Assembly: GCF_030160295.1 (NCBI RefSeq)
Contig: NZ_BSOB01000046.1
Coordinates: 466,962 to 530,961, forward strand
Direction: 5' to 3'
DNA: 64,000 nt
Source: Dyella acidisoli
GTDB taxonomy: Bacteria; Pseudomonadota; Gammaproteobacteria; Xanthomonadales; Rhodanobacteraceae
The translations under genes and the position numbers were made by a program. Below, in pieces: positions 31,611 through 64,000 of this stretch. The notes under the pieces were generated by a model. That model searched no databases, was not told the origin of the DNA, and saw nothing but the letters and a program-made list of their open reading frames with translations. The stretch's first letter is position 1. Every line of letters starts with the position of its first letter.

Positions 31611-34600
31611 TTGGCGGAGGGTTTCGAGTGACTTCGCCAGGCGTTTGGGCGACACCGGCTCGGCCGTCTTCAATTCTTGCGCGAACAGCGATACCCGCCA
31701 TTCCTCGATCAACCAGCGCAGTTCATCCAAACCGTCGCTACCACCCGCGCGATGGTTGAGGTACTCGCGCCAATACGGCAGCACCTGCAGCATGCGCTGC
31801 TGATCCTTGGCCGGATCCTGTCGCAAGCGCTCGGCACGCAAGCGCATGGCTTTCAGGTAGCGCGGGAAGTGCGCAAGTCGCGTAGTCGATAGCTCGCGCA
31901 AAAAGCCGGATGCCAGCAACGCATCGAGCTGCTCACGCAGGTCGTCGTAGCTCGCGCGCGCAAAACCGATCAACGGTGGCTGCAGCCAGGGTTTCAGGTC
32001 GGCCTGCGCCTCAATGATTGGCTCGGCGAGCTTCAATCGCTCCACCGCCGCAGCGAACAACTCACGTGCCGCATGCGTACGCAACACTTCGAATGACGCG
32101 GCACTGCGTACGTTGAGATTCTGCGTTTCCAGCAAATCGGTAAAACCGCCTTCCACCAGGTCTTCGCGCAAGCTATCCACACTGCCCAGCGATGCGTACT
32201 TCAAGGACATGGGATTGGAAATCGGCAGACGCCGACGCGCTTGCTTGACCTCGCTGTCAAGCGAGTTGCGCAGCAGACGTTCCACACCTTCGACGTGTGC
32301 TGCCTTCGCTTCGTCACGCCGTTCAAATACGCGAAAGGCCACTGCTTCGCCGAGATCGACCAGCGCGGGAAACGCCATCAATCCGCCTTCGGAGCGCACC
32401 TGCTCGGGGATTTCCTCAAAATCCCAGCTGGTCACGTCTTCGCGCGTGAGTTCGATATCGGTCTTGCGCGAAAACGCTTCACGCGCCTGCCCTTCCCATT
32501 GCGCACGCAATGCGGCGAGATCGCGACCGGTAGCGAGCGTGCGTCCGCTCTCATCGTGCAGGCGGAAGCGCATCGCAAAGTGCGGCGCAAGTTCCACGGG
32601 TGCGAATTCGCTCGCTTCGATCTCCACGCCGGTCGTGCGCCGCAGGAATGCAGCAAGCACTTTCGCCAACATCTCATCGCGCGGCGCTTCCGCTTCGACG
32701 AAGGCCCGCGCGAAGTCCGGCGCGGGTACGAAGTTGCGGCGCAAGGCCTTGGGCAATCCACGGATCAGCTCCGCCACCTTGTCACCCAGCAAACCAGGCA
32801 CCAGCCACTCGCAGCGTGCGGCTGGCAGCGCATTGAGCATCGCCAACGGCAAATGCAAGGTGACACCGTCGGCCTCGTCGCCGGGCACGAAACGGTATTC
32901 CAAACGATAGCGTTGCGGCGGAATATCGAGCGAAGCGGGAAACGCCTTCGGGTCCAATCCGGCACCGCCCACCATCACGTCATCGATCGACCAGCGCAAT
33001 GCTGCCTGTTCGGTAGGGCGCGCGTTGCGATACCACGCGTCCAAAGCGCGGCTGCTGGCGATGTCTTCAGGCAATTTTCTGCGAAAGAAATCCACCAGTT
33101 CGTCTTCATGGCGGATCAACCCTTCGCGGCGCTGGCGTGCTTCGATGCCGCGTGCGTCTTCCAGCACGCGCTGGTTCGCGCGTATGAAATCCGCACGCGC
33201 TTCGATGTCGCCGCGTGCAAGCGCTTCGCGCAGAAAGATATCGTGCGCAAGGGCTGGGTCCTGCTTCTGGAAAGTCACAGGGCGGCGTTCAACCAGCACC
33301 AGTCCGAACAGACTGATTTGCTCGTACGCCACCACGGTACCGCGCTTGCGCGACCAATGCGCGTCGCGGCAGGCGCTACGCAGCAGATGCGCGGCTTGCT
33401 GTTCGATCCACAATGGTTCGATACGCGCACACATCATGCCCCACACGCGGCCACCGATATCCAGGATTTGCGCGGCGAAGATCCAGTTCGACGGGGTCTT
33501 GGCCAGCGCAGAGCCGGGGAAGACTTGGAAGCGGCGTTCGCGGGTGCTGCGGTAGACGCCCTTCTCGTCTTTATTGCCCACCTGCGTGGGAAGACCGGCT
33601 AGCAAACTGCGGTGGATGGATTCGTAGCGATGTTCGCTCTCGCTGCCGCCTTCGCTCCCTCTCCCCTCCGGGGAGAGGGTTGGGGTGAGGGGTTGGGGCT
33701 TGCCGGAAGACGCATCCCCGCGAGTTTTTTGAGAAGACCTTGCACGCACGTTTGCCGTATCACGCGAGATTGCCCCCTCACCCCGGCCCTCTCCCCGAAG
33801 GGGAGAGGGAGAAGTGGTTGCAGCATCCAGCTTCCACCCGAGCTCCTGCGTCACCAGCAACAACTGCCGATGCAGCTCGCGCCACTCGCGCATCCGCAAG
33901 AAGCTCAAAAAGTGCCGCGTACACCAATCGCGCAATTTCGACTGCGTCAGTTCCTCATGCACGTGGTCGTACTCACGCCAGAGATTCAACACACCGACGA
34001 AATCCGACTTGGGATCGGCAAACGCTGCATGCGCCGCATCCGCCTGCTGGCGCGCATCAGCCGGACGCTCGCGCGGGTCCTGGATGCTGAGAAAGGCCAC
34101 GACCACCAGCAGCTCGCGCAGACTGCCCAGCTTCTGCGCTTCCACCAACATGCGCGCGAGTTGCACGTCGATGGGTAAACGCGCAAGCGTGCGGCCAATG
34201 GGGGTGAGCTGACGCTTGTCGTCGATCGCGCTGATTTCGGCGAGGCGCCGATAGCCATCGGCCACCACACGCGGATCGGGCGATTCAAGGAACGGGAATT
34301 CGTCAACCTCGCCCAACTGCAACGACAACATGCGCAGGATCACATTGGCGAGCGACGAACGCAGCAGTTCCGGATCCGTGAAAGCCACACGCGAGGCGTA
34401 GTCGGCTTCGTCGTACAAGCGATAGCAGATGCCGGGCCCGACACGACCGCAGCGCCCTTTGCGCTGATCCGCGGCGGCCTGCGAGACCGGCTCCACGTGC
34501 AGACGTTCGAGCTGGCTGCGCTGGCTGTAGCGCTTAACGCGTGCGGTACCGGTATCGATCACATAGCGGATGCGCGGCACGGTGAGCGAGGTTTCCGCCA

Positions 34601-53190: not shown

Positions 53191-53343
53191 CTCCCTCTCC
53201 CCTCCGGGGAGAGGGCTGGGGTGAGGGGGCGAACCTCGCGACATGGTTAGTTCCACGCGAGATTCAAGAGAAAATTTTTACGCACCGAAAATCCCCGCAT
53301 GCCTAACCCCTCACCCTAACCCTCTCCCCGAAGGGCAGAGGGA
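53191..53343. repeat. Family C facing pair without a gene inside
   Basis: The left arm runs CCCTCTCCCCTCCGGGGAG through GAGGGGGCGAACCTCGCGA, and the right arm CCCCTCACCCTAACCCTC ends with CCCCGAAGGGCAGAGGG. The spacer of about 70 bases includes ACGCGAGATTCAAGAGAAAA. It fills half of the gap between the GH92 and M13 genes; the rest (53344-53481) shows only the promoter region. Confidence 0.92.
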
Positions 53344-57955: not shown

Positions 57956-59314
57956 TCAGGCGATTCCCAAGCCTTCGATGCCCGCAATAGCTTGCTCATC
58001 GAACCCCGCCAATCCGGCGAAGCGGCGTCCGCGTTCGGCGTAGTCGTGGAATTGATCGAAACTCGGTGCACCCGGCGAGAGCAATACAGTGCCGCCTTCA
58101 GGTGTGATGATGCGTGCCATTTCTACGGCGTCTGTCAGCTTGTCGACATCACCCATCGGCACGTCCGCCCTTGCAGCGCGCAAGGCAGCGGCGATGCGCG
58201 GACCATTCGCGCCTTGCGTGATGACGCGCAAAGCCGTGCGTGACTTCACCGCATCGACGAAGGGCGCCCAGTCCAGGCCGCGATCATGACCACCGACGAT
58301 CACGGTGACCTCCCTGCCCTGCAAGCTTTCCAACGCAGCGAGCGTGGCTAGTGGTGTCGTGCTGATGGAATCATTGATCCACTGCAAGCCATCGCGTTCG
58401 CCCAATGGCTGCAGGCGATGCGGCAATGGATGGAACGAAGCTAGTCCTTGCGCTGCTGCAACGGCGTCGATACCCATCGCTTCCAGCGCGGCGAGCGCTG
58501 CACACGCATTGAGTGCGTTGTGTGGCCCAGGCACGGCGATGCGCGCCAAGGGAAACACTTCCGTTTGACCGCGGCGAATAAAACCCTCCACCACGTGCCA
58601 GCCCTCGGGTTGTCCGAACAGCAAACGTTGCGAATGCTGGGTTGTCTTCTCCAACAACGAAGGCTGTTGTGCATTCACCAACAGCCGCTGTGCACTGTCG
58701 ACCAGTTTGAGCTTGTCGGCTACATAACGCTCACGCGAGCCATGCCAGTCGAGATGTTCTTCGTAAAGACTGGTGATCACGCCCAACGCCAACGGACCGG
58801 CCTCACTTGTCTGAAAGCTGGACAGTTCGATCGCCCACAAGTCGGCTTGCTGGTCGAGCAGTTCGAGCAAAGGCAAGCCGATATTGCCTGCCAGCGCTGT
58901 GCGTACACCCGACGTACGAGCGAGATGCGCAATCAGCGCCGTCGTGGTGCTCTTGCCCTTGGTGCCAGTGACCGCGATCACGCGCGCCTGCGGATTCTCC
59001 GCAAACCACAATGCCGTACCGGAAGTGAAACGCGTGCCCTGCGCCTGCGCCGTGACGATGGCCGGCTTGTAAGCGGAAATCCCGGGCGACTTGATAACGA
59101 GGTCATAAGCGCTCAGCGCGACAGCATCGGGCTCGCGTGGATAAACGCGCAATGCCGCGTCCAGTGCCTGTGCCTCGGCGGCTTCCGCTTCGCTGCAGTA
59201 AAGCGCCAGCGGCAATTCGGGAAGGCGTTTGCGCAAGGCCTGAATGGTCGCGCGTCCTTCGCGCCCGAATCCCCAGATTGCAACACGCTGTCCGGCAAGT
59301 TCGGCAATACGCAT
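57956..59314 (-). CDS. murD2: UDP-MurNAc-L-alanine L-glutamate ligase MurD2
   Basis: A Mur-ligase of 452 residues. The N-terminal motif VAIWGFGREGRATIQAL binds the UDP part, VIAVTGTKGKSTTTALI is the ATP P-loop, and WAIELSSFQTSE, EEHLDWHGS and HNALNACAALAA follow in the usual order, with INDSISTTPLATLAAL and LLSPGAPSFDQF in the C-terminal domain. Xanthomonas MurD2 is known to add L-glutamate rather than D-glutamate, the epimerase MurL then inverting it. The murL gene directly upstream, one base apart, makes MurD2 the right assignment here rather than classical MurD. ATG 59314 is chosen because it follows the murL stop. Confidence 0.9.
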   Translation of the reverse strand: MRIAELAGQRVAIWGFGREGRATIQALRKRLPELPLALYCSEAEAAEAQALDAALRVYPREPDAVALSAYDLVIKSPGISAYKPAIVTAQAQGTRFTSGTALWFAENPQARVIAVTGTKGKSTTTALIAHLARTSGVRTALAGNIGLPLLELLDQQADLWAIELSSFQTSEAGPLALGVITSLYEEHLDWHGSRERYVADKLKLVDSAQRLLVNAQQPSLLEKTTQHSQRLLFGQPEGWHVVEGFIRRGQTEVFPLARIAVPGPHNALNACAALAALEAMGIDAVAAAQGLASFHPLPHRLQPLGERDGLQWINDSISTTPLATLAALESLQGREVTVIVGGHDRGLDWAPFVDAVKSRTALRVITQGANGPRIAAALRAARADVPMGDVDKLTDAVEMARIITPEGGTVLLSPGAPSFDQFHDYAERGRRFAGLAGFDEQAIAGIEGLGIA

Positions 59315-59315
59315 A

Positions 59316-60665
59316 TCAGCCGATCGCCGCGAGCGCCGCCTGCAAGCGGACCGGTACGCGATGTTCGCCCGAAGCGTGCAGCCACGGCTCCAATGCGAGT
59401 TGTGAAACATCGAGCTGCGGCAGAATTTCGCTACGGAAACGCGCCACCAGCGTATCCTCTTGCCATTCCGGGCGTTGGCTCAACGTGTACATCGCTGCAC
59501 GTGCTTCCGCGCCTTCGCCCACACATTCGAAGGGTTTGTGGTCGTGATACTCAAGCAACGCGTCGAAGCCTGCAGCCTGCGTTTCGTCATCGAGCAAGTT
59601 GCGACCAAAGATGGCGAGCAAGCGCGGCTTGGGCAGGAACGGCGCCAGCGCCAGAAACACGAAATGGCACTTCGGACACTGTCCGCACCAGCGATCCGCC
59701 GGTTTCGGCCCAAGAATCTTGAAGTTGCGGTTGCAGCTGGAAAACGCGTCGAAATACGGCGTTAGCTTGGCGAATGCTCGCGTGATCGCAAGTTCCGAGT
59801 ACGGACGCAACAGGGAGCAGTAATCCAGATCCGAGGCAACGTGGGTATGCAGCCAATCGGTAAGCAGTTGCTCGAAAGCGTAGCCCTTGCTCCACTGATG
59901 ATTTACTTGCTGCCCTTCGTATTCCAGCGTGGCGGCCGAGGCGGAACGCTCGTTGGCGAAGGCAATGCTGTCGAAACCATAGAGCACGGCGGCAACGGCG
60001 AGAATCGCCGAGTTCACCGCCGTCACCGGAATATGACCGTTCCAGGCACCGAGCCGGTTCAATTCGAACAAGCCGGGGGCGAGTTCGCGCTGGATATTGA
60101 GCATGGGCAAACCGGTGCGCTCCGCACACGCGGCAATCAACGGCGAATTGCCTACCCAAACCGCGGTCGCCTCGCCACCGATCTGCTTGATCGCTTCCAC
60201 GGCAACGAGCGAATCCTTGCCACCACCGATCGGCACCAGCGTGCGCTTGGGAAGATGCAAGGCAGCTGCCTCCACCTTCCCCGACGGCTCTCCGGAGCGC
60301 GGGAACGCAATACGGCCACGCAAGTCCAGGCCATTGCGATAAGCAAATTCGGCCAGGCCGTGCAGGTAGAGTGCCTCGAGCAAATCCGCCGTGGCATCGT
60401 CCAGCGGACCATCGGCCACTTCGATCTTCGGTGGCACACCCGCCTTGTAGTAGCTCACACCCGCTATGTAATGCAGCAGCCTGAGCGCGGCATTGAACGC
60501 GTGTTTGCGTTCGGGCGTCAGTGCAGGCGGCGCGGGGAAGCGCACCCGCTCGATCAACTCCTCGCCCTGGTCGAAGGCGTAGACCAACTCAGCCACGCCG
60601 TCGGCGTAGCTGTGGCGTACGAAGCGGAAGACCTGGGTCAGGCGGGGTTGGATCGGGTGGGTCAC
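59316..60665 (-). CDS. murL: UDP-MurNAc-L-alanyl-L-glutamate epimerase MurL
   Basis: MurL converts the terminal L-Glu of UDP-MurNAc-L-Ala-L-Glu to D-Glu in an ATP-dependent way, giving D-Glu for peptidoglycan without glutamate racemase. The 449-residue protein has the PP-loop-like LVPIGGGKDSLVAVEAIK, a long core with FANERSASAATLEYEG, and a Cys set in RWCGQCPKCHFVFLAL that may bind metal. The GTG start at 60665 follows GGAG at good spacing. It is the first gene of the murL-murD2 operon. Confidence 0.92.
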   Translation of the reverse strand: MTHPIQPRLTQVFRFVRHSYADGVAELVYAFDQGEELIERVRFPAPPALTPERKHAFNAALRLLHYIAGVSYYKAGVPPKIEVADGPLDDATADLLEALYLHGLAEFAYRNGLDLRGRIAFPRSGEPSGKVEAAALHLPKRTLVPIGGGKDSLVAVEAIKQIGGEATAVWVGNSPLIAACAERTGLPMLNIQRELAPGLFELNRLGAWNGHIPVTAVNSAILAVAAVLYGFDSIAFANERSASAATLEYEGQQVNHQWSKGYAFEQLLTDWLHTHVASDLDYCSLLRPYSELAITRAFAKLTPYFDAFSSCNRNFKILGPKPADRWCGQCPKCHFVFLALAPFLPKPRLLAIFGRNLLDDETQAAGFDALLEYHDHKPFECVGEGAEARAAMYTLSQRPEWQEDTLVARFRSEILPQLDVSQLALEPWLHASGEHRVPVRLQAALAAIG

Positions 60666-60692
60666 TCAGAAACTCCAAACTGTCTTTAACTT

Positions 60693-60741
60693 TCTCGCGA
60701 GGCTGCCCCTCACTTCAACCCTCTCCCCAGAGGGGAGAGGG
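60693..60741. repeat. Family C, single arm upstream of murL
   Basis: CTCGCGAGGCTGCCCCTCAC leads into CCCTCTCCCC/AGAGGGGAGAGGG. It has the orientation of a right arm and its own left partner is missing. It lies 29 bases from the left arm of the nuclease cassette. Confidence 0.88.
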
Positions 60742-60765
60742 TGCTGGATATGGCAACTTCGCGCT

Positions 60766-61146
60766 CTACTCCCTCTCCCCTCCGGGGAGAGGGTTGGGGT
60801 GAGGGGCCACACTCGCGAGAGCCTCCAAAATCACCTCAAGCACCGCGTAAGTATTCGTCAAAACATCATTGTTCCAAAATCGCAGCACGCGATAACCAAG
60901 TGTCTCTAACCGTTGCGTGCGGTATGCATCCTCTTGCATCTGCTCCGCGTGCTGCCCACCATCCAGTTCGACAATTAATCTCGCATCCGAACAGACGAAA
61001 TCGACAATATAACGATCAATTTCATGCTGCCGGCGGAACCTGTATCCAGACAGCGGCCGACCACGCAGGTGATACCACATCAATCGCTCTGCATCAGTCA
61101 TGCTGCCGCGCAAGTCCCGCGCCTTGCGGACATTCATCCGCTTCAT
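60766..61146 (-). CDS. DUF559 nuclease-like protein inside family C arms
   Basis: A 126-residue protein of the DUF559 group (Vsr-like, PD-(D/E)XK fold). The core is complete: FRRQHEIDRYIVDF with H41 and D49, then LIVELDGGQH with E60, D62 and H66, and VLRFWNNDVLTN near residue 88-98. The group is predicted to cut DNA; no function is proven here. ATG 61146 follows AAGGAACTCAGGG, which begins shortly after the right repeat arm. The last 17 residues (LASVAPHPNPLPGGERE) and the TAG stop lie in the left arm. It is a compact single-gene cassette. Confidence 0.9.
   Translation of the reverse strand: MKRMNVRKARDLRGSMTDAERLMWYHLRGRPLSGYRFRRQHEIDRYIVDFVCSDARLIVELDGGQHAEQMQEDAYRTQRLETLGYRVLRFWNNDVLTNTYAVLEVILEALASVAPHPNPLPGGERE
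60770..60820. repeat. Family C left arm of the nuclease cassette
   Basis: TCCCTCTCCCCTCCGGGGAG through GAGGGGCCACACTCGCGAG. It codes, on the minus strand, for the C-terminus and stop of the DUF559 protein. Confidence 0.92.
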
Positions 61147-61164
61147 CCCTGAGTTCCTTTCTAC

Positions 61165-61216
61165 ATCTGGCGAGGTTGACCCCTCACCCCAGCCCTCTCC
61201 CCGAAGGGGAGAGGGA
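61165..61216. repeat. Family C right arm of the nuclease cassette
   Basis: TCTGGCGAGGTTGACCCCTC then CCCTCTCCCCGAAGGGGAG. It forms the 5' leader of the DUF559 gene and lies 15 bases downstream of lysAC. Confidence 0.92.
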
Positions 61217-61230
61217 GCTAAAGTGCGGCG

Positions 61231-63843
61231 TCACTCGATGACGATCTCTTCCGCCTCATCCCGCAGATTGTACGGCGAGGACATCACCTTTCCGTAAGCG
61301 CCAGCCTGGGCAACCAGCACCACGTCGCCCTCCTGGGCTTCCGGCAGGCGGCGGTCCGAACCGATCACGTCGCCGCTTTCGCAGATCGGGCCGACTACCT
61401 GGTAGAGCGCGGTGGCCGGCTCGTCCAGGCGCGTGAGGTTCACAATCTCGTGCCAGGCGTCGTAAAGCGCCGGACGGATCAGGCTGTTCATGCCCGTATC
61501 CACGCCGAGATAACGCCACGAACCCTTACCCTTCTGTTGCGTCACGCGAGTGATCAGCACGCCCGCATCAGCGACCAGATAACGTCCCGGCTCCATCCAC
61601 AACTGGTAATGCGGATAAGCCGCCTTGACCTTGCGCAGCGTTTCTTCGAGCGCTGCGATGTCGAGCTGCGCCTCACCGGGATGCGAAGGCACGCCGAGAC
61701 CGCCGCCGATATCGAGAAAAGCGACGCTACCGATGCGTTCAGCGATGGTCGCCAGCTGGCTGTACACCTCGCTCCAATGCTTGACGTCGAGAATGCCTGA
61801 ACCCAGATGCGCATGCAGACCACGCACAGTGACGCCATGCGCATCGGCCAGGCGCAGGAACGCATCGAGCTGATCTACCGGCAAACCGAATTTGCTGCCG
61901 CTGCCGCCGGTGCGCACTTTTTCGTGATGGCCCAGGCCGCGCCCAAGATCCAGACGCAGCACGATTTCGCGCCCGCGGAACACATCGCCCCAATGCTCCA
62001 ACGGATAGAGCGAATCCAGCGACACGGTGGCACGCGTGGTGAATGCCCACGCGTAATCTTCGCGCGGCGCGAAGTTGGGCGTGAACAGCAGCGGCGCCGA
62101 TTCGGGCACCACTGCCATCACCGCTTTCAGTTCGCCGGGCGACACGCACTCGAAACCGAAACCTTCTTCGGCGAGTGCGCGCAGGATGGCCGGATGCGTA
62201 TTGGCTTTCACTGCGTAATGCAGGCGATCCACTGCGCCGAGTGTCTTCAGCGCACGCGCCTGCTTGCGCACGGTCGGCAAGTGATAAACGTAGCGCGGCG
62301 TAGCTTCAGCACCGAGCGCAAGCAAACGCTCACGCTCTTGCATGCGCCACCAGGCATCGCTTGCGGCAATCGTTTCACCGCTGCCGTATAGGCTTTGCCA
62401 GCTCGGCCCGAACAAGGCACTGTCATCGGTACGCAAGGCGCCAGCAGCAATCAGCATTTCGTGCAGGCGTGGCACCAGTTCGTCCACCACGCTCTCGTCG
62501 ACCACGAAAGTGAGGTTGAGATTGTTGGACGACTGCGAAATCAGGTGCACGCGCAACTGGCCGAACTCCGCCAGCACACCGGACAAGGTATGAAGCATCG
62601 AACGCATGCCGCGGCCAACCATGGTGATCGCCGCACACGGCGCAATCACCTTGACGCGGCAAACCTTGGCCAGATCGCTGGCGAGCGCGGCGATGGCATC
62701 GGAATCGAGCAGGTTTTCGGTGGGGTCCAGCGAAACGGTGACGTTGGTTTCCGCCGAACTGATCAAGTCCACCGACAAGCCGTGCTGCTTGAAATGCGCA
62801 AACACGTCGGCAAGAAAACCGACCTGCTGCCACATGCCCACCGACTCCATCGAAATCAGCGTGATGCCTTTGCGCGCGCTGATCGCTTTGACACTGGGCG
62901 CGTGCTCGCGCACTTCCGGACCGATCACGGTGCCTTCAAGTTCCGGACGATTCGTATCCTTGATCAGCATCGGCACACGCGGCTCGCGCAACGGCGAGAG
63001 GCAGCGCGGATGCAGCACTTTTGCCCCGGTAGAAGCGATTTCCTGTGCTTCTTCGTAATCAAGTTTCTGCAACAGGCGCGCACCTTGCACCTGGCGTGGA
63101 TTGGCGGTGAACATGCCAGCCACGTCAGTCCAGATTTCCACGCGTTGCGCTTTGAGCAATGCGCCGAAATACGATGCCGACGTATCCGAACCGCCACGGC
63201 CAAGCAGCACGGTGCGGCCTTGCGATTCGCGCGCAATGAAACCTTGGGTTATGAACACTTCGCCCAGCTGCGCCAGACGTTCGTTCAATGCCGGATCGGG
63301 TTTCGCCTCGACCATCGCCGAAAGCAGCTTGGTGCGTTCGTTCTGATTCGGCAGCGCCACCGCGGCCAGACACTCGCGCGCATCCAGCCACTGCGTGGGC
63401 AGATCCGTATGCGAGAGAAACGCCGCACCCAGCGCACTGGACATCAGCTCGCCGTGCGCCTGCACCAGCGCCGACCACGCGAGCTCACCCATCACCGCCG
63501 GACCTTCTTCAGCCAGCTTCGACAGCTCGCGCAAACGCGTGGCCAAGGTATCGGGTACGGACAACTGCATGTGATCGAGCAGATCGTAGTGACGCTGCGC
63601 GATCGCTTTGTATGCCTCGATACGTTTGCCTTTATCTTCCTGGGCGCACAGTTGTTTGAGTGCGTCGGTGATGCCGGTCAGCGCGGACACGACCACCAGC
63701 ACGCGCGCGCCTTCGGCACGACGACTGGCAACGAGTTCGCGGATGTTCTGCCAGCGCGGCAGGGTGGCGACACTGGTGCCGCCAAACTTCATCACGATCC
63801 AGGGTGCGCCGGAGGAAAGCGGCGCGGGGGCGTTCGAGGTCAC
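61231..63843 (-). CDS. lysAC: Bifunctional aspartate kinase / diaminopimelate decarboxylase
   Basis: A fusion of the first and last enzymes of lysine synthesis. The N-terminal aspartate kinase starts at IVMKFGGTSVATLPRWQN and is followed by ACT-type regulatory segments (KGITLISMESVGMWQQ; VTVSLDPTENLL) to about residue 470. The C-terminal decarboxylase has the PLP Lys in LHYAVKANTHPAILRAL, GGGLGVPSHPGE, EPGRYLVADAG and the CESGDV loop. The GTG at 63843 has a weak AGAGAAA site; a TTG at 63876 would add 11 residues. Such fusions are a hallmark of xanthomonads. End-product control through the ACT domains is inferred. Confidence 0.95.
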   Translation of the reverse strand: MTSNAPAPLSSGAPWIVMKFGGTSVATLPRWQNIRELVASRRAEGARVLVVVSALTGITDALKQLCAQEDKGKRIEAYKAIAQRHYDLLDHMQLSVPDTLATRLRELSKLAEEGPAVMGELAWSALVQAHGELMSSALGAAFLSHTDLPTQWLDARECLAAVALPNQNERTKLLSAMVEAKPDPALNERLAQLGEVFITQGFIARESQGRTVLLGRGGSDTSASYFGALLKAQRVEIWTDVAGMFTANPRQVQGARLLQKLDYEEAQEIASTGAKVLHPRCLSPLREPRVPMLIKDTNRPELEGTVIGPEVREHAPSVKAISARKGITLISMESVGMWQQVGFLADVFAHFKQHGLSVDLISSAETNVTVSLDPTENLLDSDAIAALASDLAKVCRVKVIAPCAAITMVGRGMRSMLHTLSGVLAEFGQLRVHLISQSSNNLNLTFVVDESVVDELVPRLHEMLIAAGALRTDDSALFGPSWQSLYGSGETIAASDAWWRMQERERLLALGAEATPRYVYHLPTVRKQARALKTLGAVDRLHYAVKANTHPAILRALAEEGFGFECVSPGELKAVMAVVPESAPLLFTPNFAPREDYAWAFTTRATVSLDSLYPLEHWGDVFRGREIVLRLDLGRGLGHHEKVRTGGSGSKFGLPVDQLDAFLRLADAHGVTVRGLHAHLGSGILDVKHWSEVYSQLATIAERIGSVAFLDIGGGLGVPSHPGEAQLDIAALEETLRKVKAAYPHYQLWMEPGRYLVADAGVLITRVTQQKGKGSWRYLGVDTGMNSLIRPALYDAWHEIVNLTRLDEPATALYQVVGPICESGDVIGSDRRLPEAQEGDVVLVAQAGAYGKVMSSPYNLRDEAEEIVIE

Positions 63844-63960
63844 GGTTTCTCTGTCTAGGGTTGCGGGAAAAGTCAATTCCGCCAGTGTTGCAATGCGTCA
63901 GCCGGAATGCAACCGAAAATTCGGCATAGCGTTTGGATGGCTAAATGCCGGCGCGTTTTG

Positions 63961-64000
63961 CCCCCTCTCCCCTCCGGGGAGAGGGTTGGGGTGAGGGGCC
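63961..64000. repeat. Family C arm at the window edge
   Basis: CCCCTCTCCCCTCCGGGGAG with GTTGGGGTGAGGGG runs into the end of the window, in left-arm orientation, upstream of lysAC. Its partner, and any gene inside, would lie beyond the window. Confidence 0.88.

Follow-up and report, generated by a model that had tools for sequence, protein, structure and literature searches.

A DUF559 gene bracketed by inverted triplex-motif repeats in Dyella acidisoli: a candidate REPIN/RAYT-like system with a predicted nuclease

In REPIN/RAYT systems, as described by Bertels and Rainey (2011, PMC3116915) and Di Nocera (2013, PMC3733652), inverted palindrome pairs disperse as units, and so do the repeats studied here. 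A second point of reference is the intrastrand triplex motif of Holder et al. 2015 (TM-ECO, BoxC or PIT), with the pattern CCCTCNCCCN3-6GGGNGAGGGN3GGGNGAGGG, whose E. coli version that paper studied by CD, NMR and footprinting (PMC4666352). BoxC/triplex repeats have been known since the 1990s, with no function assigned to them (Holder et al. 2015, PMC4666352); the same paper also describes inverted pairs, strain-to-strain instability and hairpin-leaving deletions for the motif and states that in E. coli it was not found with transposons, phages or plasmids. As to enzymes, the substrate of Vsr is described as T:G mismatches (PMC12907096).

Here we analyze a 64-kb stretch of DNA (64,000 nucleotides, hereafter the window) from contig 46 of the 5.34-Mb genome of Dyella acidisoli (G000), in which two palindromic arms face each other across a gene of the DUF559 family. 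DUF559 is widespread and has no settled role. The stretch had previously been read from its letters and open reading frames alone, and this sequence-only reading called the arms "family C".

The DUF559 gene and its bracketing arms

The gene lies at 60766..61146 on the minus strand (381 bp) and codes for a 126-aa predicted nuclease of the PD-(D/E)XK / EDxHD type, with a match to Pfam PF04480 at E 4.1e-42 (142.9 bits against a cut-off of 20.6); the Y1 domain is absent from the protein. Residues E20, E60, D62, H66 and D73 are invariant, and D49 nearly so, among 37 DUF559 sequences. The predicted fold of the catalytic domain is that of the EDxHD homing endonuclease I-Bth0305I and of Vsr, and judged from this fold the protein is a predicted Vsr/EDxHD-like nuclease, as the sequence-only reading had supposed. 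Pfam found no second DNA-binding domain in its 126 aa.

The left arm (60769..60820, plus strand) comprises a hairpin at 60771-60793, a third strand at 60796-60806 that lies toward the gene, and the inner box CTCGCGAG at 60812-60819, and it contains an exact match to the published triplex pattern at 60771-60805 (+). The right arm (61166..61217, minus strand) is an inverted copy, with its hairpin at 61193-61215, its third strand at 61180-61190, an exact match to the pattern at 61181-61215 (-) and an inner box (CTYGC on the minus strand) at about 61170-61174, on the gene side. Together they form an inverted repeat of 52 nt that is 88% complementary, with a spacing of 345 nt, which confirms the earlier description of facing arms of about 50 bp enclosing a 381-bp DUF559 gene, coordinates included. 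The last 17 or so residues are encoded by the left arm, with the stop codon (60766-60768) at that arm's outer end, and a ribosome-binding-like AAAGGA (61155..61160, minus strand) precedes the ATG on the inner side of the right arm; both fit the claim that the ribosome-binding site is just inside one arm and the stop in the other. An extra arm outside the unit (60693..60741, minus strand) has the opposite orientation to the left arm and a partly degenerate third strand. Were arms placed independently, facing arms within 120 bp on both sides of a given gene would arise with a chance of about 8e-6.

The unit is flanked by genes for MurD, MurL (NF041275, 780 bits) and an aspartate kinase/diaminopimelate decarboxylase fusion (NF006515), all within window positions 57956-63876. 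PADLOC and PHROGs gave only weak matches at the locus, and a defence reading is unsupported. The Rfam matches there were all below gathering scores and nearly all to microRNA models, and we took them as generic long-hairpin hits.

Read from outside to inside, an arm consists of CCCTCTCCCC-nnn-GGGGAGAGGG, which forms the hairpin, two bases, GGGGTGAGGGG, a few bases and CTYGC. The purine side of the stem, reversed, is GGGAGAGGGG, and the next tract, GGGTGAGGGG, fits it in third-strand pairing, with G lying on G and T or A on A. On this sequence match, the arms are the published BoxC/TM-ECO intrastrand triplex motif, a hairpin with a third purine tract, and the "family C" of the sequence-only reading is not new as such (Holder 2015, PMC4666352). 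The published pattern has six exact matches in the 64-kb window, as against none in 100 shuffles, one of them a single arm at the window edge (63963..63997, plus strand), and the core hairpin, with up to two mismatches allowed, occurs 249 times in the Dyella acidisoli genome, where a reversed control pattern occurs 0 times. In 36 of the 39 arms read in this genome, the third strand is followed by a CTYGC box no more than 15 nt away, and a control position shifted by another 200 nt has the box in 1 of 39; no mention of the box was found in the accessible text of the triplex-motif paper of Holder et al. (PMC4666352). The earlier claim that the arms share an inner CGCGAG holds only in this more general form, as the gene's right arm has GGCGAG, and CGCGAG is absent from the arms at 33655 (left) and 53343 (right).

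A second palindrome type (CCCTCCCCTGC..GCAGGGGAGGG) is present in 59 copies in the same genome, and the sole DUF559 gene found there has arms of the first type. A gene serving the second type may have been lost or may have gone undetected.

Gene-free pairs and the history of the locus

Two gene-free pairs had been claimed within the window, and both exist. The first (33655..33811), recognized from its arms and the triplex pattern, has an interior of 81 bp, and its orthologous site carries pairs, some of them decayed, in several species of the genus. The second (53191..53343) has an interior of 78 bp and an exact triplex pattern on its left arm only, with related copies on four other contigs of the same genome. 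Among these, the interior of the contig 4 pair recurs at 84% on contig 10, 80% on contig 18 and 77% on contig 5, and its identity to the window pair is 68%, below the reach of the search that found the contig copies, compared with at most 57% for shuffled interiors. Homology among the five copies starts at the left stem and ends about 8 bp beyond the right stem, and the flanks are near background (0.47-0.56, against a shuffled mean of 0.50 and a maximum of 0.53; the right flank of one copy, L228, is not cleanly bounded). As homology is confined to arms and interior between unrelated flanks, the pair has moved as one unit, and whole gene-free pairs have moved, giving five diverged copies at unrelated places of the genome. 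This is how the non-autonomous copies supposed in the sequence-only reading would behave. No target-site duplication was seen by eye in the five aligned copies, which are diverged.

The same arrangement recurs through the genome. Measured for 50 of the 249 hairpins, 11 of 43 neighbor distances are below 1 kb, and all of these are 109-135 bp. Fourteen facing pairs were read in the genome (two of them in the window), with interiors of either 60-64 bp (five pairs) or 78-86 bp (nine pairs). Within 643 kb of the genus, representing one chromosomal neighborhood chosen for its DUF559 site, we counted 19 facing pairs of neighboring arms, 17 gene-free (interiors of 38-86 bp) and two enclosing DUF559; no facing pair in those 643 kb encloses any other gene.

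The MurL gene is present in 16 of 16 genomes of the genus, and a DUF559 gene stands beside it in 9 of the 15 readable ones and is absent from 6 (the remaining genome, G013, ends at a contig end there). In seven of the nine DUF559-bearing genomes an extra arm of opposite orientation separates the start codon from the facing arm, and the gene there belongs to a cluster of three or four arms; the simple two-arm form is seen, within the genus, in the window's genome and in G003. The sites lacking DUF559 all keep something of the repeats: one tagged arm in G002 and G012, a degenerate arm in G014, an arm with an apparent 3' remnant of the gene in G004 (profile positions 92-119, E 0.99, which is weak alone), and a single, excision-like hairpin made from the outer halves of both arms in G005 and G008. 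A hairpin of this last kind is also found in G014 at the site of pair 53191, and a similar hairpin-leaving event in E. coli is called a "palindromic effect" by Holder et al. (PMC4666352). Judged from what is left in them, the six DUF559-less sites look like losses by deletion between the arms. The clean empty sites that had been proposed as a check are not found at these orthologous loci, where all six retain arm sequence of some kind, whether an arm, a degenerate one or a hairpin. With the gene-less sites read as losses, no recent jump of the DUF559 gene is seen at the one syntenic site in the genus (15 readable genomes). Among named DUF559 proteins, 19 of 27 pairs with at least 65% identity have a flanking homologue in common within 3 kb on each side.

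Distribution of arms and gene across genomes

Bracketing elsewhere was surveyed in a relatives' set, made up of 50 loci from 61 related genomes that cover 52 of 60 matches (the other eight being fragments or parts of long proteins), and in a named set, the best 80 of at least 567 confirmed relatives from a scan of 84,980 species. The detector knows only the hairpin and the mirror third strand, and Y1/RAYT loci and shifted windows served as controls. An inverted pair with both third strands facing the DUF559 gene was found at 50 of the best 80 named loci and 26 of the 50 relatives' loci, compared with 0 of 30 Y1/RAYT loci from the same genomes and 0 of 185 shifted windows, so the enrichment of flanking inverted arms that the sequence-only reading had suggested measuring is indeed there. 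The full facing pair was not seen at the other 30 and 24 loci, respectively. A triplex motif of any arrangement lies in the flanks of 72 of the best 80 named and 44 of the 50 relatives' loci (1/30 RAYT, 5/185 shifted), and a plain inverted-repeat test, applied to loci with full flanks only (6 named loci and 1 relatives' locus were dropped), gave scores of at least 20 at 59/74 and 38/49, against 3/30 RAYT loci and 1/629 shifted windows. Among the best 80 named loci, facing pairs occur in six phyla in all: Pseudomonadota (41/66), Thermodesulfobacteriota (4/4), Planctomycetota (2/3) and single loci of Methylomirabilota, Nitrospirota and Chloroflexota. At L112, the only Melainabacteria locus of the set, the pair points outward.

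Some loci depart from the simple form. Three (L032, L130 and L154) have two paired long-stem palindromes on each side of DUF559, a compound arrangement unlike the single arms elsewhere, and in five others (L118, L107, L141, L148 and L157) stem and third strand stand further apart, and the sequence that separates them resembles a small hairpin.

The sequence of the palindrome differs between DUF559 subgroups: the stem GGGGAGAGGG belongs to the subgroup of the window, GCAGGGGAGGG to a second (e.g., L008, L018 and L020), GGGAGAGGGG to a third (L040-L045) and GGGAGGGGG to the Sphingomonas locus L149. Taking one hairpin per side (130 loci, 208 hairpins, 83 distinct stems), stems match their own third strands with a mean score of 7.18, and permuted pairs reach 5.67 (sd 0.15; at most 6.13 in 2000 permutations); because some stems are related, the test does not yield a clean probability. 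Such co-variation would fit triplex formation. The stem type is the same in both arms at 51 of 76 loci, compared with 16.5 on average and at most 28 after shuffling, and it tracks the DUF559 tree with 40 changes over 96 labelled rows, as against a mean of 55.5 and a least value of 47 in 300 shuffles. Across lineages the palindrome varies, with joint changes of stem and third strand, and the arms of one locus tend to match.

Repeats and gene also tend to occur together. Among 114 gammaproteobacterial genera, a strong DUF559 match (E 1e-15 or better) is present in 22, and the hairpin is found in 17 of these versus 16 of the 92 others (Fisher 1.7e-7). The 92 include nine genera whose matches are weaker and lie mostly within long proteins. 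With at least two hairpin copies required, the figures are 14/22 and 11/92. The 61 relatives give a similar picture for at least two copies of palindrome types 1 or 2 (27/31 with strong DUF559 versus 4/30 without), also outside the genus (14/18 versus 1/27). All these figures, for gamma genera and relatives, are inflated by shared ancestry. DUF559 is missing from 83 of the 114 gamma genera, and five genera (G094, G104, G106, G152 and G172) have 9 to 69 hairpins and no DUF559-like gene; the DUF559 profile at E 10 has no match in G094, G106, G152 and G172 and a single chance-level piece in G104. Their hairpins number 36 in G104, 56 in G106 and 69 in G152, and the same third strand is present at many of the hairpin sites read in G104, G106 and G094. 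Several G106 hairpins lie near contig ends. The repeats of these DUF559-free genera may be served by something else, or the gene may have been lost.

The DUF559 gene of E. coli K-12 is ycjD. An exact TM-ECO (L161, 7206-7240) stands 167 bp past its 3' end, which is itself spanned by a degenerate arm; no arm was seen on the 5' side, and the full pair is therefore absent in K-12. A ycjD match is present in 3365 of 5426 E. coli genomes and BoxC-like places in 5376 of 5426 (1 to 31 each, median 17), and at least 2011 genomes without a ycjD match keep at least one such place. Strain IHE3034, to which Holder et al. ascribe one motif (PMC4666352), is without ycjD at the fabI-sapF site, and genes for a TetR-type regulator, RND efflux and MFS lie between fabI and sapF there (NC_017628, 1516685-1524177). 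We do not count E. coli presence and absence for the model, because the ycjD and BoxC counts are separate totals that phylogroup confounds.

Proposed mechanism, alternatives and known systems

Our conclusion is that gene and repeats make up a system of a REPIN/RAYT-like kind whose enzyme is unrelated. It seems to us fairly probable that the DUF559 gene and its two bracketing triplex-motif arms are one unit, whose predicted nuclease cuts the folded arms and spreads arm pairs, both gene-bearing and gene-free, through the genome. The arms would fold when single stranded (e.g., during replication), giving a hairpin with the third strand laid back on it; the nuclease would recognize this folded shape together with the adjoining CTYGC box and make a nick or break. 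PD-(D/E)XK nucleases hydrolyze DNA and do not rejoin it, which is why host replication and repair would be needed to finish copying an arm pair into another place. Gene-free pairs would be non-autonomous and depend on enzyme made from the gene-bearing unit, in the way that REPINs depend on RAYTs, and loss would occur by deletion between the two arms, with one hairpin left. The inferred steps are the cutting of arms, the recognition of their folded form, any role of the CTYGC box and the movement of the repeats by the nuclease. The observations in favor of the model are the bracketed arrangement and its return in six phyla, stems and third strands that change together, repeats that tend to accompany the gene, and a gene-free pair that has dispersed whole, together with the excision-like hairpins and the TM-ECO close to ycjD. 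Against it stand the DUF559-free genera with many hairpins, the 59 copies of a second palindrome type in a genome with a single DUF559 gene, the position of the gene at one ancestral site in its genus, the flanking homologues common to 19 of 27 DUF559 pairs, the extra arm in seven of nine genomes of the genus, the named and relatives' loci at which no full facing pair was seen, the outward arms of L112, the failure to see a target-site duplication, and the E. coli genomes that have BoxC-like places and no ycjD match. On this model, the DUF559 enzyme is the likely agent of spread of the some 250 repeats of the Dyella acidisoli genome, whose role was hitherto unexplained.

A host function for DUF559 is unlikely but deserves weighing first. 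The protein could be a nuclease of the Vsr kind, engaged in DNA repair or structure processing, with the arms as its own substrates for autoregulation or kept by its action, and their dispersal otherwise caused. One would then not expect arms to face the gene in a single geometry in groups as different as Dyella, Sphingomonas, Planctomycetota and Desulfobacteraceae, nor the gene to be absent from 83 of 114 gamma genera. We find it harder still to credit a homing-type endonuclease that cuts arm-free or single-arm sites, with recombination with an occupied copy bringing in the unit and the arms serving as recognition and homology regions, given that hairpins far outnumber the single gene-bearing unit, that homing into a fixed allele does not give gene-free pair copies at unrelated sites without flank homology, and that Pfam finds no further DNA-binding domain in the 126-aa protein. 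That the arms are ordinary terminators or insulators flanking small orphan genes by chance is very improbable: they are G+C-rich hairpins near gene ends, as terminators would be, but their third strand co-varies with the stem, they are inverted about the gene while the two kinds of control used, shifted windows and RAYT loci, are empty, and gene-free arm pairs come in two set sizes. A RAYT or other Y1 transposase moving the arms, with DUF559 as passenger, is hardly credible, as a mere passenger should not turn up in one phylum after another with arms particular to each lineage, even though the window's genome has four Y1_Tnp matches.

Y1 loci were searched directly, and "family C" arms were found at 0 of 30 (the best per genome, from 30 of the 44 genomes with a match) and near none of the four Y1 loci of the window's own genome. 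Other inverted repeats were found at three RAYT loci (L056, L057 and L060), and the inverted-repeat test can therefore detect other flanking repeats. Contig 1 of G003 has sixteen near-equal full-length Y1 transposase matches, an IS200-like expansion, and L052, the one of the sixteen that was read, is without these arms.

Returning to the nuclease model, a broader formulation is that of a miniature mobile DNA that crosses phyla and works with a hydrolytic PD-(D/E)XK-type nuclease (DUF559) and no transposase, as a dedicated partner that recognizes the palindromes as intrastrand triple helices; it would explain where BoxC/TM repeats come from and why they are unstable, also in E. coli, where ycjD would be the partner. 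For this formulation we regard the case for and against as evenly balanced. The parts themselves are known. No paper linking DUF559 or ycjD to BoxC, triplex or REP repeats was found in the open-licence PMC literature, searched mostly by title, and the words DUF and endonuclease are absent from the main text of Holder et al. (2015, PMC4666352). If repeats and gene are tied together, the function of BoxC repeats and of DUF559 becomes testable at once, including in E. coli K-12.

Compared with MITEs, the gene-free pairs are likewise short (about 150 bp) and non-autonomous, end in inverted repeats and have an interior conserved among copies; they differ in that each terminal repeat is a palindrome in its own right and carries a third strand. 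No target-site duplication was seen by eye among the diverged copies, and we know of no DDE transposase source for these pairs. With the EDxHD homing endonucleases (I-Bth0305I) and Vsr, the DUF559 protein shares the catalytic-domain fold, but its unit has no visible intron, intein or long DNA-binding part, and inverted triplex-motif arms bracket the gene. With BoxC/PIT/TM-ECO, the likeness is that the arms fit the published pattern exactly. The resemblance to REPIN/RAYT extends to an enzyme gene in one or a few copies between palindromes, to matched types of enzyme and palindrome, and to inverted doublets dispersed in many copies, as found in the Dyella acidisoli genome. The enzyme differs, being a Y1 HUH transposase there and having a predicted PD-(D/E)XK-type nuclease fold here, and so does the mark on the palindrome, a GTAG tag there and a third strand (39 arms read) with a CTYGC box (36/39) here. 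We would see a new kind in the present system because enzyme class and DNA fold both differ from the REP/RAYT kind; if true, it offers a natural protein that likely recognizes a triple-helical DNA fold and a second, unrelated enzyme solution to the problem that REP/RAYT systems solve.
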